64,000 nucleotides of DNA from NCBI GenBank assembly GCA_016184105.1, contig JACPDI010000040.1, forward strand, positions 124,001 to 188,000. The letters run 5' to 3'. Below, one piece after another: positions 12,501 through 45,357 of the stretch (positions within the stretch are counted from its first letter, which is position 1; each line of letters opens with the position of its first letter). Under the pieces are notes generated by a model that made no database searches, was not told the origin of the DNA, and saw only the letters and a program-made list of their open reading frames with translations. This stretch comes from Acidobacteriota bacterium (GTDB lineage Bacteria > Acidobacteriota > Vicinamibacteria > Vicinamibacterales > 2-12-FULL-66-21). Made by a program: the position numbers and the translations under genes.

Positions 12501-14788
12501 ACAACGTCAGCCACGTGACCGTCCTCGGCGCCGGCGTCATGGGCGCGCAGATCGGCGCGCATTTCGCCAACGCGGGAGTCCCCGTCCTCCTCCTCGACGT
12601 GACCGCGCAGGCCGCGGCCGAAGGGCTGGCGCGCGCGCGAAAGCTCCGCCCCGATCCGTTTTTCACGGCGGACGCGCACGAGCTGATCGCGACCGGCTCG
12701 TTTGACGAGGGTCTCCCATCGGCCGCCAGATCCGACTGGATCCTGGAAGCGGTCGTCGAGCGGCTCGACATCAAACAGGGACTGTTCGAACGGCTCGAAC
12801 ACATCCGCCGCGCCGACGCCGTCGTCTCCTCGAATACCTCCGGCATCCCGCTGCGCATGCTCGCCCAGGGGCGTTCGGAGGGCTTCCGGCGGCACTTCCT
12901 CGGTACGCATTTCTTCAATCCGCCGCGCTATCTGCGCCTGCTGGAAGTGATCCCGACCGCCGACACCGACGCGCAGGTCGCTGCCGCCATCTCGCGGTTT
13001 GCCGACCACCGGCTGGGCAAGGGGGTCGTCGTCGCGAAGGACACCCCGAACTTCATCGGCAACCACATCGTGATGCACGGCGTGCTGCGCATCTTCGAAC
13101 TGCTCGCGGCCGGTGGATTCACCGTCGAGGAGATCGACGCGGTGACGGGCCCGGCGATCGGCCGCGCGAAGAGCGCGACGTTCCGCACGATCGACATCGC
13201 GGGACTCGACGTCCTCGCGCACGTCGCGCGCAACCTGGCGGAAAGTGGGACAGTCACACTTTCCTCAGGCGGCCGTCAGGAAAGTGTGACTGTCCCACTT
13301 TCCGCGCCCCTTCCCCGCTTCGTCGAGCAGATGCTCGCGAAGGGCTGGGTGGGCGAGAAGGCCGGGCAGGGTTTCTACAAGAGATCGAAGGCGGCCGACG
13401 GCTCGAACGAGATCCTCGCGCTTGACGTCCGGACGCTCGAGTACCGCCCGCAGCAGAAGCCCAGGCTGCCGTCGATTGAAGCGGCGAAGGCGATCGAGGA
13501 CACGGGCGGGCGGATCAGGACGCTGTTTCTCGGCAAGGACCGCGTCGGCGAGTTCCTTCGCGCCACGCTCGGCGACTCGCTCCTCTACACGGCTCGTGTC
13601 GCGCCGGACATCGCGCACTCGCTCGAGGACGTGGACCGCGCGATGCGCTGGGGATTCGCCTGGGACCTCGGCCCGTTCGAGACATGGAACGCGATCGGCG
13701 TGCGCGAGGTGCTGCAGGCCGTCGGCGTTGCCGAGGCCGACGCGCCGCCGCTCGTGCGCGACCTCCTCGCCCTCGGGGAGAGCCAGTTCGCGCTTCGACA
13801 CGCGCCGACGGCGCTCCGCCGCGGCAGGGTGGTGAAGAAGAACGCCGGCGCCAGCCTCGTGGACCTCGGCGACGGCGTGCTCGCCATCGAGTTCCACTCG
13901 AAGATGAACGCGATTGGCGGCGACACGGTCGCGATGATCGACGCCGGCGTCAAGGAAGCTGCCGCGAACTTCGCCGCGATCGTCGTCGGCAACGACGCGC
14001 CGAACTTCTCGGCCGGCGCCAACCTGATGCTGCTGCTCCTCGAGGCGCAGGAGGGGAACTGGGACGAAGTGGACCTCATGATCCGCGCCTTCCAGCGCGC
14101 CACCATGGCGCTCCGCCTCTCGCCGGTGCCCGTGGTCGTTGCGCCTGCCGGCCTCACGCTCGGCGGCGGCTGCGAAATGGTGCTGCACGCCGACCGCGTG
14201 CAGGCGGCGGCTGAAAGCTACATCGGGCTCGTCGAAGTGGGGGTCGGGCTGATCCCTGCCGGCGGCGGCACGAAGGAGATGCTGGCGCGCGCCGTCGAGC
14301 GCGCGGGCGACACCACGAACCTGCTCGCCGCCGTGCAGCCCGTTTTCGAGACCATTGGCTTCGGCAAGGTCTCCACGAGCGGGCCGGAGGCGCGTCGCTA
14401 CCGCTACCTGAGCGAGGCGGACGCGATCACGATGAACCGCGATCGCCTGCTGGACGACGCGAAAGCGCTCGCGCTCTCCCGGGTCGAGGGATACGTTCCC
14501 CGGTGCGTGCGGCCGGCGATTCGCGTCGGCGGCGCCGGCGTGCTGGCCGCGCTGAAGCTCGGCGTACACCTCGCCTGGCGTGCGGGCCGGTTGAGCGACC
14601 ACGACAAGACCATCGGCGGCAAGCTGGCGTGGGTGCTCGCCGGCGGCAACGCGACGCACGAGACGACGATCAGCGAGCAGCAGGTGCTCGATCTGGAACG
14701 CGAAGCGTTCCTCAGCCTGTGCGGCGAGCGCAAGACGCAGGAGCGCATCGCTCACACGCTCAAGACCGGCAAGCCGCTGCGGAACTGA
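12497..14788 (+). CDS. fadN: 3-hydroxyacyl-CoA dehydrogenase / enoyl-CoA hydratase
   Basis: A bifunctional beta-oxidation enzyme of 763 residues in the FadN order, dehydrogenase first. The NAD-binding motif GAGVMG is at residues 11-16; HFFNPPRYLRLLEVIP (~140) and KDTPNFIGNHI (~183) follow. The C-terminal dehydrogenase domain ends with WVGEKAGQGFYKR (~290). The hydratase part has the oxyanion-hole segments NFSAGANLMLLL (~505) and LTLGGGCEMVLHADR (~555). Together it hydrates enoyl-CoA and oxidises 3-hydroxyacyl-CoA. Residues 249-269 are not enzyme sequence: they are encoded by an inserted 64-bp palindromic repeat that keeps the frame and lies in the dehydrogenase region just before the conserved LPRFVEQML. 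Start overlaps the TetR stop (ATGA); fadA and fadE follow after two hydrolase genes. Confidence 0.92.
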   Translation: MNNVSHVTVLGAGVMGAQIGAHFANAGVPVLLLDVTAQAAAEGLARARKLRPDPFFTADAHELIATGSFDEGLPSAARSDWILEAVVERLDIKQGLFERLEHIRRADAVVSSNTSGIPLRMLAQGRSEGFRRHFLGTHFFNPPRYLRLLEVIPTADTDAQVAAAISRFADHRLGKGVVVAKDTPNFIGNHIVMHGVLRIFELLAAGGFTVEEIDAVTGPAIGRAKSATFRTIDIAGLDVLAHVARNLAESGTVTLSSGGRQESVTVPLSAPLPRFVEQMLAKGWVGEKAGQGFYKRSKAADGSNEILALDVRTLEYRPQQKPRLPSIEAAKAIEDTGGRIRTLFLGKDRVGEFLRATLGDSLLYTARVAPDIAHSLEDVDRAMRWGFAWDLGPFETWNAIGVREVLQAVGVAEADAPPLVRDLLALGESQFALRHAPTALRRGRVVKKNAGASLVDLGDGVLAIEFHSKMNAIGGDTVAMIDAGVKEAAANFAAIVVGNDAPNFSAGANLMLLLLEAQEGNWDEVDLMIRAFQRATMALRLSPVPVVVAPAGLTLGGGCEMVLHADRVQAAAESYIGLVEVGVGLIPAGGGTKEMLARAVERAGDTTNLLAAVQPVFETIGFGKVSTSGPEARRYRYLSEADAITMNRDRLLDDAKALALSRVEGYVPRCVRPAIRVGGAGVLAALKLGVHLAWRAGRLSDHDKTIGGKLAWVLAGGNATHETTISEQQVLDLEREAFLSLCGERKTQERIAHTLKTGKPLRN
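13240..13303 (+). repeat. In-frame palindromic element in fadN
   Basis: A perfect 25-bp inverted repeat: left arm 13240-13264, loop of 14 bases, right arm 13279-13303. Each arm is itself nearly palindromic (GTGGGAC-A-GTCACAC). It is read in frame as ESGTVTLS, five loop residues, then ESVTVPLS. The same arms occur in fadA at 16753-16813. Confidence 0.9.
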
Positions 14789-16176: not shown

Positions 16177-17365
16177 CGCCGTCATCGTTTCCGCCGTTCG
16201 CACCCCCGTAGGCAAGGCGCCGCGCGGCGCGCTGAGCGCGACACGCCCCGACGACATGGGCGCGACGGTCATCGCCGAAGCCCTTCGCCGCGCGCCGGGC
16301 CTCGACCCACGGGAGGTGGACGACGTCATCCTCGGGTGCGCGATGCCCGAAGCCGAACAGGGGCTCAACGTCGCGCGCATCGCGAGCTTGCGCGCCGGTA
16401 TTCCTGTGGATGCGTCGGCGGTGACCATCAACCGCTTCTGCTCGTCTGGGCTGCAGGCGATCGCGTTCGGCGCCGAGCGCATCATGGCGGGCTTCGGGCA
16501 CACGATCGTCGCCGGCGGCACCGAGTCGATGAGTCTTGTGCCGATGGGCGGGCACAAGGTGGCGCCCAATCCGACGCTGGTGGACACCTACCCGGACGCG
16601 TATCTCAGCACCGGACTCGTGGCGGAGAACCACGCGCGGGAGTCGAGCATCTCGCGCGAGGCGCAGGACGCCTGGGCGCTGCGGAGCCATCAGCGCGCGG
16701 TGGCGGCAATCGACGCAGGGCGGTTCGCCGAGGAGATTGTGCCGGTGGAGAGGGAAAGTGGGACAGTCACACTTTCCGGGCGACGAGAGGAAAGTGTGAC
16801 TGTCCCACTTTCCCCTTTTGCCACCGACGAAGGCCCGCGGCGCGACACGTCGCTTGCGGCGCTGTCCGCGCTGAAGCCGGCGTTCCACGTCAAGGGCACC
16901 GTGACGGCGGGCAATTCATCCCAGATGAGCGACGGCGCCGCCGCCGCGGTCGTGATGAGCGCGACGCGCGCGAAGGAGCTGGGGCTCGCGCCGATGGCGC
17001 GCTTCGTCGCCTTCGCAACGGCTGGCGTGGAGCCGGAGCGCTTCGGCATCGGCCCGGTGCCCGCGGTGCGCAAGGCGCTGAAGCTCGCGGGGCTGAAGCT
17101 CGAGGACATCGACCTGGTGGAGCTGAACGAGGCGTTCGCCTCGCAGGTGCTCGCGTGCCTGAAGGAGCTGCCGTTCGATCCGGAGCGGGTCAACGTCAAC
17201 GGCGGCGCCATCGCGCTGGGCCATCCGCTTGGCTGCACGGGCGCGAAACTGACGGCGACGCTGCTCTACGAAATGCGGCGCCGCCGATCGCGCTACGGCC
17301 TGGTCACGATGTGCGTCGGCGGCGGCATGGGCGCCGCCGGAATATTTGAGAATTTGAGTATTTGA
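16169..17365 (+). CDS. fadA: Acetyl-CoA acyltransferase (thiolase)
   Basis: 398 residues, the usual thiolase length apart from an insertion. The start [15 protein letters not shown] at 16169 aligns with the family start. Catalytic residues are visible: Cys91 in NRFCSSGLQ, His352 in GHPLGC and Cys382 in MCVGGGMGA. It cleaves 3-ketoacyl-CoA to acetyl-CoA and a shortened acyl-CoA, the last step of the cycle. Residues 196-215 come from an in-frame palindromic repeat in the variable loop before [20 protein letters not shown]. The last residues (IFENLSI) are encoded by the start of a TTTGAG repeat. It overlaps the upstream hydrolase; fadE follows 27 bases later. Confidence 0.93.
16752..16814 (+). 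repeat. In-frame palindromic element in fadA
   Basis: Arms 16753-16777 and 16789-16813 are identical to those in fadN, with an extra G-C pair outside and an 11-base loop instead of 14. It is read in the same frame as in fadN (ESGTVTLS, four loop residues, ESVTVPLS). The three-base difference in loop length preserves both reading frames. Confidence 0.9.
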
Positions 17366-39802: not shown

Positions 39803-39845
39803 TAAGTGTGACAGTCACACTTAATAAGTGTGACAGTCACACTTT
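39803..39845. repeat. Two tandem copies of TAAGTGTGACAGTCACACTTA
   Basis: Copies at 39803-39823 and 39825-39845, each a palindrome around one central base (the second ends TTT). The core is the same as in the elements inside fadN and fadA. They lie 10 bases after a stop codon in an intergenic position. Confidence 0.85.
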
Positions 39846-40935: not shown

Positions 40936-42107
40936 TCAGAAGTGTACTCGCAGGCGCGCGTAGAGGAAATCGCGGTCGGCGAAACGCCCGATTGCGTCGG
41001 CGCTCCTGCCGATGAACCATCCCACCGACCCTTCAATCGCGACATCTTCCACAAGCTCCATCGACGTGATGTTCCGGGCAAACGCCGACCGATCCGTCAT
41101 GTTGTATACCGCGAAGGTTCGCCGGCGGCCGATTCGCGATGGACGAGCAACGTGCCGCTCACGTGGAACCGACCGGCCCGCCGGTCGACACCGGCGCCCA
41201 CGTCCACCCGATCGACGTCGCTGTGAATCGCGGCGACCTCGCCGCGCAGCGCCCAGTTCTCCCGCGCGGTCTCGAAGTCGCCGCCGACCATCGTCAAACG
41301 CGGGAAGGTCCGCGCCGCCTGCATCAGCGGCGCGAGCGCCAGCGGGTCGGGCGGCTGCACCTTGAAGGTCCCGAACGCGTCGAACCCTCGGTACGCGGCC
41401 ACTGACCAGTCCCACCGCCCCGCCGTCGCGGAGACGCGGGCGCCTCCCTGCACGTTTCGCAGGGACGTTGGCGGCTCGAGCACCGCGGGGTCGAGCGGCC
41501 GGCACACGCCGATGCCCAGGCAGACGATGCGGTCTGCTTCCAGGTTGAAGGGTGACGCGCGCTCGTCGAGCAGATCGAATGATCCGCGCGTAAAGGTCGG
41601 CACGAGCACGGCATCCATCGTCGCGCGCTCGCCGAAAAAGAGGCGTCCTCGGACGAGGGGTACGGCGAGCCGCGCCTCCGATCGGCCTTCCAGGAAGAAC
41701 CGCGCCAGGTCCAGGGGATTCACGATATCGGTCGGCTGAATCTCGTCGAGGCGGCCCCATACCACGCGCGTGTAGCCGGCGCGCAGGTCCGCCCGAGCCC
41801 CGGCCACCTCGACGTACGCCTCCTGCGGCCGCGCGGTGACGTCGCGCGCCGTCTGGCCGCGGCCCCTGTCGGCCACGAGTCCCTCCACGAAGCCGGCCAG
41901 ATGGATTGTGAGGCGGCCGAGGCCGAACTTCTCCTCGGCGAAGAGCCGCGCCCGCAGCTCGGTGACGGGGACCGGCGCGTTCGGCAGACGATCCACAGCC
42001 AGCCAGACATAGCCGCTGGGGCGCGTCTGCGCGGTCAGCTCACCGCAAGACGCGCAGAACACGCTGAAGACGACGACAGGCAGGACGACGCGCACGTTGG
42101 TGTTCAT
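40936..42107 (-). pseudogene. Outer-membrane barrel of an RND operon, broken by one frameshift
   Basis: It starts at ATG 42107 (MNTNVRVVLPVVVFSV), overlapping the stop of the RND gene by four bases. The frame runs as a barrel protein (GYVWLAVDRLPNAPVP, IQPTDIVNPLDLARFFLEGR) to about 41123, where it meets a premature stop at 41097-41099. From about that point a second frame continues the protein (FAVYNMTDRSAFARNITSME, GSVGWFIGRSADAIGRFADR, ending YARLRVHF). One missing base near 41120-41130 would restore 390 residues with a proper C-terminal Phe. It resembles DUF1302-type barrels found with MMPL-type transporters. It may be a real mutation or a sequencing error. Confidence 0.8.
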
Positions 42108-44524
42108 GCTCCCGCGGCTTCCGCGCGTTCCGCGGTGAGTGCCCGCTCCCCCTGGAACCACGGCACAAGTTTGATAATCGCCGGCAGCACGAACACCTCC
42201 GCCAGGAACGCGGTGGCCATCGTCAGACCGAGCAGGCCGCCGAACCACGCGGTAGGACGGTATTCAGACGCCAGCAGCACGCCGAATCCCGCGCTGTTGA
42301 TGATCGCCGTGGTGAGCGCCGCGCGGCCTTCGAAAACTGTCGCCGCCTCGATCGCGCGGTCTACCGTCGCGCCGTGCGCGCGGTCCCTGCGGAACCGGTT
42401 GATGAAATGGATCGTGTCGTCGTCCACGACGCCCAGCGCAACGCTCGAGACCATGATGGTCGCCACGTTCATCGAGATGTCGAGCCATCCCATCATGCCC
42501 AGCACGGCCAGCACCGGAAAGAGGTTCGGGAAGATCGCGAGCACGCCGAAACGCGCCGACCGGAAGACCAGGAAGATCACGCCGAACACGGTGACGAAGG
42601 CCGTCGCGAAGCTGCTCAGCTGCGAGGTCACCAGGTAATGGTCGAGCGTGGAAAAGAGCCGGCCGGACCCCGTGACGGTCGGCGTGATGGTCGTGCCGGC
42701 AAACGCGTCGGCCGCGATCTGCTCCGCCTTTTCAATCTGCGCGAAGACGAGGTCCGAACTCATCGACGCGAGCTTCACGGACATCTGCGCGCGCGAGTAA
42801 TCGCTCGCCACGATCCGTTCCAGCTCGCCGCGACCGCGGTCCGACAGGCCGAAGACAAACAGCTCCTGGGCAATGGCCGGCGCGTCGGCCGGCAGGACCG
42901 CGGATTCCGGCCGGCCATCGTGCAGCTCGCGGTTGATGCGTTTCACGTAGTCGGCGACCGACGTCGCCTTCTTCACGTACGGCAGCCGCAGCAGCTCCGC
43001 CGACACGCGCTCCATCCGGCGCATCGCGTCCGGCGACTTCAGGGAATCCGGCGGACCTTCCAGCAGGATGTTGAAGCTGTAGATGCCGGACAGCTCCTCG
43101 TCGATGACGGCCGCCGACGTGCTCAGCGGGTGACGCTTGCTGAAGAAATTGATGTGATTGGTGTCCACGTACAGCCGGCTCGTGCCGGCAATCGTGACGG
43201 CGCCGATCGCGGCGGCGATCGACAGCACGAGCCTCGGTCGGCCGGCGGAGAGCCTCGCGACGCGCCGAAGCGGCTCGACCAGATACGTCTCGTGAGGCGC
43301 CGCCGATGCAGTGTCGCGGCGGACCCACGCGAGCAGCGAGGGCACGAGCACGAGGGAGATGACGAAGTCGATCATGATGCCGGCGGCCGACCCGATCCCG
43401 AACTGCCGGACCGCGACAACGTCGCTCGTGGCGAGCGAGAGCATGCCGAGCGCCGTGGTGACGCTCGCGCCGAGCAGCGGCGCGAACAAGTGGCTGACCG
43501 TGGCCTTGAACGCGGCTTCCGCGTCCCGGTGGCGCCGCTCGTGCTCAAAGTGCTGCATGATGTGCACGTCGTCGGCGATCGCGAGGACGATGATGAGCGG
43601 CACGAGCATGCTCGTGAGCACGTTGTAGGTGAAGCCGATCACCGTGTAGAGGCCGAGGGTCCAGAACACGCTGACGAGCACCGCGAACATCGCCAGCGCG
43701 GTGCGCCGCCACGACCGGAACATCAGGTAGATGGCGGCCAGCGTGAGGAGAAGGATCGGGGGGGTGAACTTCGCCGTGTTGTCGAGGGTGATCCGGTTAT
43801 AGGTTTCGCTGATCTCCAGGCTGCCGTTGAAGTGCGCGGTCAGGCCGGCCGGCAGCCGCGAGGTCACCGCGCGGTGCACCGCGTCGACCACCTGCGCCCG
43901 CACCTCGTCCACCCGGTCCTCGTCGAAGCCCACGACGATCGCGACGACCCGCTCGTCGTCCGATACGAGGTCGCCGCGAATGAAGTCGTCCCGCATCGCG
44001 AGCCGCCGGACGGCAGCGATGCCCTGCTCGCGGAAGACGTCGGACAGCGGCCGCACGAGCAGCGTGGCGTCGTCGTCGGAACTTCGGTCGGAGGGGCGAG
44101 CATTTTCGCCGGCGGCCGAAACTGACGGTGTACGATCACGGCCGCCTGCGAAAACGCCCGTCCCTCCGACCTGGCTGGCACCCGAGACGATGTTCGTCGT
44201 GGCGAGGCTGTCGGCGCGCTGCACGAGCCGGATGCGCTGGATGTCCGCCGTGGCGCGTTCCAGGAACTGGAAGCGCTCGGCGGTGAATACGGTCCCTTCT
44301 TCCGCCTTCAGCGCGACGATCAGGGTGCGCGTGCCGCCGAATTCCTTCCTGAAGCGTTCGTACTGCTGAAAGACCGGATCGTCGCGGGAGAACCACGCGG
44401 TGATGTCGTTGTCGATCCTGGTGATGACGCCGAGCGACGGCAGAGACAGGACGGCGCCCAGCACGATCAGCGCCGACAGCGGTTTCCGCCAGCGATAGAG
44501 GAAGACGGCGAGACGATCGCTCAT
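42104..44524 (-). CDS. RND/MMPL-family transporter
   Basis: 806 residues with two repeats of the RND layout: an N-terminal helix (LSALIVLGAVLSLPSLGVIT), a periplasmic loop, then five-helix bundles at ~250-400 (PPILLLTLAAIYLMFRSW, TYNVLTSMLVPLIIVLAIAD) and ~640-790. Conserved Asp pair in LAIADDVHIMQHFEHE and GVVDDDTIHFINRFRRDRAH, the proton-relay segments of MMPL proteins. Residues ~118-147 (VGGTGVFAGGRDRTPSVSAA and beyond) are encoded by an in-frame 86-bp inverted repeat and are not family sequence. It is co-transcribed with a LolA-like protein (upstream) and a barrel protein (downstream), a trio thought to move lipids or hydrophobic compounds to the outer membrane. Confidence 0.9.
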   Translation of the reverse strand: MSDRLAVFLYRWRKPLSALIVLGAVLSLPSLGVITRIDNDITAWFSRDDPVFQQYERFRKEFGGTRTLIVALKAEEGTVFTAERFQFLERATADIQRIRLVQRADSLATTNIVSGASQVGGTGVFAGGRDRTPSVSAAGENARPSDRSSDDDATLLVRPLSDVFREQGIAAVRRLAMRDDFIRGDLVSDDERVVAIVVGFDEDRVDEVRAQVVDAVHRAVTSRLPAGLTAHFNGSLEISETYNRITLDNTAKFTPPILLLTLAAIYLMFRSWRRTALAMFAVLVSVFWTLGLYTVIGFTYNVLTSMLVPLIIVLAIADDVHIMQHFEHERRHRDAEAAFKATVSHLFAPLLGASVTTALGMLSLATSDVVAVRQFGIGSAAGIMIDFVISLVLVPSLLAWVRRDTASAAPHETYLVEPLRRVARLSAGRPRLVLSIAAAIGAVTIAGTSRLYVDTNHINFFSKRHPLSTSAAVIDEELSGIYSFNILLEGPPDSLKSPDAMRRMERVSAELLRLPYVKKATSVADYVKRINRELHDGRPESAVLPADAPAIAQELFVFGLSDRGRGELERIVASDYSRAQMSVKLASMSSDLVFAQIEKAEQIAADAFAGTTITPTVTGSGRLFSTLDHYLVTSQLSSFATAFVTVFGVIFLVFRSARFGVLAIFPNLFPVLAVLGMMGWLDISMNVATIMVSSVALGVVDDDTIHFINRFRRDRAHGATVDRAIEAATVFEGRAALTTAIINSAGFGVLLASEYRPTAWFGGLLGLTMATAFLAEVFVLPAIIKLVPWFQGERALTAERAEAAGA
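44086..44171. repeat. 33-bp inverted repeat inside the RND gene
   Basis: Arms 44086-44118 and 44139-44171 pair at 29 of 33 positions around a 20-base loop. The arms begin GGTCGGAGGG and contain TTTTCGC and GGCGGCCG. The frame is kept through the element. It is unrelated to the GTGTGACAGTCACAC family. Confidence 0.88.
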
Positions 44525-45357
44525 CGGCCTGCGCCGCGCTCCAACTCGCGGCGCGAGAACTGCGCGTCGGAGAGCCCGGCGTTGTACTCGATGCGCTCGA
44601 CCCGCAGGCGCGTCCGCGTCCGATCGAGCAGGTTGGACATCCCGGCCTCGAGGACGGTCCAGATGCCCTGGATCTTGTCGAGCCGTGTGACCGCGTACAC
44701 CTTTTCGCCCTCGTCGCGGCGATTGAACACTTCGGCGCCTACGACCACGAAATCTGTTGTGACAACCGATACCACTCGCGGATACTTCGCGCTCGCGTCC
44801 TTGCGCTTCGACTCAAGGCGATAGGCGGGCTGCGTGGTACCGTCGGGGGCGCGCCACGTCGCGTTGTCCGCCGGGCTGCCGAGCAAGGCGTAGGTATAGT
44901 CGTCGAATTCGCGCCCGCCGATGTCCTCGTAGCTGAAGTCGGTGCCGACGAAGCTCTCCTGCGCTTCCGATCCGGCGATCCGTCGCACCCGGCCGAGCGA
45001 GGGCAGGTACAGAAACCGTTCGTCTTCCGCCGCCGGATGCTCCCAGACGAGGAAGCTGGTGCCCCTGATGTCCTCCGGGCGCGTGAAGCGCGTCAGGACC
45101 TTGTCCCCTTCCCGTCCGGCGCCTCGCTTGGACAGCAGGGTGAGCGTGCGCTCGCGCGCGCGGCCGTGGCGATCGTAGAGCGTCAGGTGGAGCGTGCCGC
45201 GGGAATCGCGTCCGGTATCGCGATCCTGGATCTGGCGCGCCACCCACTCGCCGGTCACCTTGCCCTGCGCGTGCAGGGGATCCGTGTCGGCCCCACCTCC
45301 AGGCAGGAAGCAGACAACCAGAGCCGCTCCGAGCGATCGCATCGCCTTGAGGGGCAC
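44521..45357 (-). CDS. LolA-like outer-membrane lipoprotein-sorting protein
   Basis: About 278 residues from GTG 45357. The signal peptide runs to about residue 31 (ALVVCFLPGGGADTDPLHAQ). The fold segments GTLHLTLYDRHGRARERTLT (~52), LTRFTRPEDIRGTSFLVWEH (~85-105), DERFLYLPSLGRVRRIAGSE (~110-130), FVGTDFSYEDIGGREFDDYT (~137-155) are diagnostic of this LolA-like family. Such periplasmic proteins bind a hydrophobic ligand and usually stand next to MMPL transporters, as here. It ends four bases into the RND gene. A TACGAT box lies 7 bases before the GTG. Confidence 0.88.
   Translation of the reverse strand: MPLKAMRSLGAALVVCFLPGGGADTDPLHAQGKVTGEWVARQIQDRDTGRDSRGTLHLTLYDRHGRARERTLTLLSKRGAGREGDKVLTRFTRPEDIRGTSFLVWEHPAAEDERFLYLPSLGRVRRIAGSEAQESFVGTDFSYEDIGGREFDDYTYALLGSPADNATWRAPDGTTQPAYRLESKRKDASAKYPRVVSVVTTDFVVVGAEVFNRRDEGEKVYAVTRLDKIQGIWTVLEAGMSNLLDRTRTRLRVERIEYNAGLSDAQFSRRELERGAGR

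Follow-up and report, generated by a model that had tools for sequence, protein, structure and literature searches.

A gene for an RND/MMPL-family transporter in the window (the whole stretch of 64,000 nucleotides of Acidobacteriota DNA analyzed here) contains a long inverted repeat that is read through as protein. This raises the question of whether the repeat belongs to the transporter or came to lie in it from elsewhere, and what kind of element would carry such a structure.

The inverted repeat and its host gene

The features of the locus are collected in Table 1. The two arms of 33 nt are complementary at 29 of 33 positions (88%) across a 20-nt spacer, and no inverted repeat of the window has longer arms in a search limited to 300 bases. 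The coding strand of the hairpin folded at -66.5 kcal/mol vs -36.7 +/- 3.6 kcal/mol for dinucleotide shuffles (z = -8.2), and none of 200 shuffles was as good. A score-based scan of 464 kb of the own genome, a sample consisting of the window and 20 stretches, one of which overlaps the window, found 31 strong hairpins including that of the RND gene, whereas a 124-kb Markov-shuffled control gave none. The geometry given by a sequence-only reading of this DNA, namely 33-bp arms with 29 paired positions around a 20-base loop, was confirmed by both the inverted-repeat search and the folding, and is far beyond chance. The strongest hairpin in the surveyed sample was a perfect palindrome with 43-bp arms and a 19-nt loop elsewhere in the genome (L120:4106-4210).

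Table 1. Positions in the window of the hairpin, its parts, its host gene and neighboring or comparable features
Feature	Position	Strand	Remarks
Whole inserted hairpin element, 86 bases	44086..44171	(-)	RND coding strand is the family's "loop strand"
5' arm (coding strand), GGTCGGAGGGACGGGCGTTTTCGCAGGCGGCCG	44139..44171	(-)	
Conserved apical loop, TGATCGTACACCGTCAGTTT	44119..44138	(-)	Family signature
3' arm (coding strand), CGGCCGCCGGCGAAAATGCTCGCCCCTCCGACC	44086..44118	(-)	
Host gene, intact 806-aa RND/MMPL-family transporter	42104..44524	(-)	ORF open across hairpin; MMPL match PF03176
Upstream neighbor, LolA-like outer-membrane lipoprotein-sorting protein	44521..45357	(-)	Context
Copies of the abundant palindrome family	13238-13305, 16752-16814, 39804-39844		Also L105-L118, L123

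The RND gene is likely to form one operon with the LolA-like gene. The insert encodes approximately residues 118-147 of the RND protein, between the strands formed by residues 111-115 and 155-159. About 20 distinct RND-related loci (55-64% identical; several were obtained twice, through two collections) align on both sides of the hairpin and lack about 26-29 residues there. The alignment with relatives that the sequence-only reading had proposed as a check therefore agrees with its description of normal MMPL sequence interrupted by about 29 added residues. When 29 codons were excised from the gene, a 20-residue linker of normal length remained, as in L060/L090. The GC contents at codon positions 1, 2 and 3 were 0.70, 0.73 and 0.57 for residues 121-150, while third-position GC was 0.83-1.0 in the other tabulated 30-residue blocks; the low third-position GC of the inserted codons fits what would be expected of foreign DNA without selection as protein. 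In an AlphaFold2 model of the protein (mean pLDDT 84.5), residues 119-152 had pLDDT values below 50, and the inserted residues are predicted to form a disordered loop instead of the added surface hairpin that had been anticipated. By the MMPL/RND fold, this region is normally periplasmic, in keeping with the periplasmic-loop site assigned earlier. Because the residues are absent from relatives, removal of 29 codons restores the linker, the codon composition is alien and the region is predicted to be disordered, we conclude that the hairpin was inserted in frame into the RND gene.

In another species, the same RND linker (L052/L083) contains an unrelated tandem insert of CGGACCTC-type octamer repeats, which codes for TSDLGPPTSDLEPRTSDLGPPTSD. 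It follows that this linker tolerates inserts.

Copies, anatomy and location of the hairpin family

Neither the 33-bp arm nor the whole element has a second full copy in the own genome (96% complete), where 13-mer matches were no commoner than those of a reversed-pattern control. The earlier proposal to trace a family by the 33-bp arm was accordingly unproductive, since the arm is single-copy and the recurring part is the loop with the inner stem. Within the 5' arm, the outer part is single-copy in the genome and the inner 7 bp (GCGGCCG) recur in other family copies. BLAST against 162 genomes of the order retrieved two hairpins that match the window element in loop and inner stem and differ from it in the outer stems, L153 in G054 and L154 in G018. 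A core pattern then led to one more copy in the own genome (G000:C4:11337-11400), lying between two genes that we take from their translations to be nuoE and nuoF, and to further copies in G018 and G054. With a covariance model, R1, we found 5 copies in G018 (C148, C170, C242, C58 and C190), 11 in G054 (C27, C12, C52, two in C45, C38, C3, C6, C4, C11 and C21), 3 in G107 and a divergent set in G049, in which the loop starts as in the family and its right half is different. The model scores the window element at 79 bits, this copy being among its building sequences. Two of the divergent G049 hairpins, with the same loop start GTGATCGTACAGCGTC, stand in tandem 125 bp apart (L215, at about 1540 and 1665).

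In a sample of 396 genomes of the phylum, R1 matches with E <1e-5 were confined to G000, G018, G054 and G107 and to two genomes (G329/G469) in which the loop motif is absent and the match was judged to be chance; G049 gave no match there. Weak R1 matches in single genomes (E 1e-5 to 1e-2) were treated as unproven. Several other candidates were rejected: partial matches at C28 and C30 of the own genome, neither of which has such a hairpin; BLAST matches in G008 and G111 (L125, L155), which were interpreted as coding-sequence coincidences with no comparable hairpin seen; and core-pattern matches in G080, G098, G110, G117, G120, G128 and G138, which have no matching hairpin and were attributed to chance. 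The viral contigs and plasmids searched held no match to the element, and Rfam gave none above the gathering score, only sub-threshold ones, mostly to microRNA-type hairpin models. No description of the family was found in the open-access literature searched, although its absence is not thereby proven. Judged by the shared loop and inner stem, the window hairpin is one copy of a low-copy dispersed hairpin family.

The elements of this family are about 80-95 bp long and have in common a loop of about 20 nt near TGATCGTACaGCGTCAGTT. Read along the loop strand from the outside inward, they begin with about 13-30 bp of outer stem, followed by a small and mostly purine mismatch, a usually short inner stem and the loop. 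Copies of the G000/G018 type have GCGGCCG/CGGCCGC as their inner stem; in the main G054 subfamily, the inner part is longer and conserved, and the outer ends, GTTGRCG, are shared. The outer stems differ strongly among copies, yet their pairing is kept, with many double compensatory changes. In alignments hand-trimmed around the structure, five G000/G018 sequences showed double changes in 11 of 12 outer-stem pairs, with 97.8% of the cells of the whole structure paired vs 33-43% in slid controls; for nine G054 copies, the corresponding values were 10 of 28 pairs and 98.8% vs 36-51%. The loop strand was predicted to be more stable than its complement in 17/17 copies, and wobble mismatches on it were more often G-U (19) than A-C (6). 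Since the copies are relatives of one another, the counts for strand and covariation are only partly independent. The comparison shows a dispersed hairpin family whose stems are constrained to pair, and the strand asymmetry suggests that selection acts on only one of the strands, whether as RNA or as single-stranded DNA. Homogenization of the arms as double-stranded DNA would be insufficient on its own, because it would not predict the asymmetry. Long near-perfect hairpin repeats in G101 (L251 and L254) share GGCGGAGATGATC with G054 copies and have a different, longer loop; they are possibly a sister family.

Locations were assigned by ORF and codon-GC gene calls, with Pfam support for several neighbors. 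For most of the intergenic copies that could be assessed, a neighboring stop codon is 0-85 bp away, and two copies occupy the space between convergent genes, leaving about 15 bp on either side. There is no clear stop codon before one G054 copy (G054_C3a), and the copy at G018_C58 is situated a short way upstream of an ankyrin-repeat gene, not inside it. With G054_C52 counted as a sense copy, about 12 of 15 copies have their loop strand in antisense orientation to the adjacent gene; this count was made by hand and is suggestive only. Only the RND copy is clearly intragenic. At the G054_C38 locus, the element is missing from the relatives G101 and G102, which have 31-37 bp with a short hairpin of their own between the same two convergent genes, so that growth or replacement of a hairpin in place is possible for intergenic copies. 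No target-site duplication was visible by eye in the flanks, and divergence at the sole comparable site is too great for its boundaries to be placed exactly.

The own genome also carries an abundant palindrome family (GGGACAGTCACACTTTCC-type, GGGACAGTC; AAGTGGGACAGTCACACTTTCC...GGAAAGTGTGACTGTCCCACTT), of which the 464-kb survey found about 20 copies. As the sequence-only reading had stated, the RND hairpin and the GGGACAGTCACACTTTCC-type palindromes have no evident sequence in common. Two window copies of the AAGTGGGACAGTCACACTTTCC...GGAAAGTGTGACTGTCCCACTT family are inside long open frames with coding-like composition. The view that at least two palindrome families have entered coding sequence in this genome is hence only partly upheld: both have copies inside open frames, but in the loop-sharing family such a copy is exceptional, nearly all others being intergenic and mostly near gene 3' ends. 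A palindrome related to the AAGTGGGACAGTCACACTTTCC...GGAAAGTGTGACTGTCCCACTT family adjoins a Y1 transposase match at G000:C18 (L226), and because of this neighborhood, the AAGTGGGACAGTCACACTTTCC...GGAAAGTGTGACTGTCCCACTT family may be the REP of this genome. A candidate REP-RAYT pair occurs in G054, where two CCCYGCCCCGAATGGCAC palindromes (L223:1366-1419 and 2034-2087) flank a Y1 transposase match. The own genome also contains a further palindrome family, AAAAAGGGGTCGGGAGCCTTTTT... (L120:14299-14367, L118:18133-18191, L114:12640-12696 and L108:18041-18106), and tandem GACTCGCGGCGCTCGCTCAGG repeats, apparently in a coding region (L047:600-700, that is, G000:C28 at about 75600-75700).

Origin and spread of the element

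The window element is probably not part of the transporter but a small mobile hairpin. We give a probability of about 0.7 to the reading that a non-autonomous copy of the dispersed hairpin was inserted whole into the RND linker and is tolerated there. A family copy would have entered the periplasmic linker, which is hypervariable and disordered, in one piece and would have lengthened the gene by about 29 codons, a multiple of three bases, with no stop codon; it may be tolerated because the linker accepts varied sequence. The spread of the family would be non-autonomous, probably by way of a single-stranded hairpin that some enzyme recognizes through the loop on one strand. A search of the 96%-complete genome for a donor copy sharing this outer stem found none, so that transposition of this exact sequence can only be presumed.

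The hairpins occupy the usual sites of 3'-end or terminator hairpins, which makes a function for the host at gene ends plausible, although unproven. Such a role is central to another explanation, in which these are lineage-specific gene-end hairpins (terminator-like or at mRNA 3' ends) that have a conserved protein-binding loop and evolve at their sites, with occasional copying that would have produced the RND copy as an accidental duplicate. We regard this as a serious possibility that falls short of even odds, and it overlaps the insertion reading for the intergenic copies. The distances from stop codons, the two copies placed exactly between convergent genes, the maintained pairing of the stems and the different short hairpin of relatives at the G054_C38 site all agree with it, but none of the sequences read showed a noticeable U-tract, the better-folding strand is mostly the wrong one for the RNA of the adjacent gene, and the RND copy is left unexplained by a gene-end role alone. 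Alternatively, the core may insert into pre-existing palindromes, so that the variable outer stem would be that of the target. REPs within target palindromes are known (PMC3733652), and the strong differences among outer stems and the hairpin of relatives at the G054_C38 site could be read in this way. We nevertheless consider it improbable, because the RND linker of relatives is too short for such a hairpin, removal of the whole hairpin restores the linker length, and the members of the G054 subfamily share their outer ends.

Movement as a RAYT-type REP/REPIN element by a Y1 (IS200/IS605-like) transposase is very improbable, even though REPs are likewise palindromic, located at gene ends and in part intragenic (PMC3733652). 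No Y1_Tnp match was detected in G018 despite its 5 copies; none of the five Y1 loci examined gave an R1 match, and the palindromes near two of them (in G000 and G054) belong to other families. The conserved part is, moreover, the loop and not a short stem tagged with GTAG or CGTC. Least credible of all is that, without any mobile element, fold-back template switching created a quasi-palindrome de novo within the RND gene. While the single-copy outer arms would suit such an event, other genomes, and C4 of the own genome, contain the loop and inner stem as well, which a purely local event would not yield; this sharing of the 20-nt loop and inner stem already largely refutes it.

Beyond the insertion reading, it is conceivable, though doubtful, that the family represents a new class, mobile or regulatory, that is recognized by its apical loop on one strand and has a long stem free to vary provided that it stays paired, the copies lying mainly at gene 3' ends in antisense orientation. 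Short palindromic repeats are usually recognized by conserved stems or ends, and a loop-recognized family with covarying stems, which here covary even among the copies of a single genome, would escape ordinary repeat finders. The covariation together with the one-strand bias provides a testable case for a hairpin that acts as single-stranded DNA or RNA.

Comparison with known palindromic repeats

The bacterial MITE-like repeats ERIC, BOX, RUP and SPRITE are short, non-autonomous, palindromic and mostly intergenic. The present family resembles them in being short, palindromic and mostly intergenic. It differs from MITEs, which are defined by conserved terminal inverted repeats, in that its outer ends are not conserved across genomes: conserved ends occur only within the G054 subfamily and are different in G000 and G018. 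SPRITE is expanded as rho-independent terminator-like element in PMC10969869.

REPs are 20-40 bp long, with a 4-base tag outside a stem of 5-13 bp, and fall into GTAG and CGTC superfamilies; CGTC REPs have the tag at one end, a stem of 8-9 bp and a loop of 4-5 nt, and no transposase is known for them (PMC3733652). As with REPs and REPINs (PMC3733652), the palindromes described here are dispersed near gene ends, and the RND copy, like some REPs, is intragenic. Unlike REPs, they have a conserved 20-nt loop and a long covarying stem. On inspection, no GTAG was noticed at the stem bases of family copies, and CGTC occurs within the 20-nt loop and not at an end, with total stems of about 20 bp or more. 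On the features examined, the family is neither a GTAG nor a CGTC REP, nor is it a classical MITE.

The RND copy itself can be compared with the palindromic elements of Rickettsia, which are about 150 bp long and often intragenic, with 44 insertions in genes of R. conorii (Ogata 2000, 2002, reviewed in PMC10969869). In both cases, a palindrome is inserted in frame into an otherwise normal gene, adds tens of residues and is absent from orthologues. By the description in that review, the present elements differ in their length of about 80-95 bp, their conserved loop and free stem, and the intergenic position of nearly all copies. Inverted repeats within protein genes are also known from the mitochondria of Nematomorpha, in which long inverted repeats lie in functional genes and both arms encode conserved protein (PMC6649704), whereas the arms in the RND gene encode an extra loop predicted to be disordered. 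The RND copy is another palindromic repeat that adds protein sequence, outside Rickettsia.
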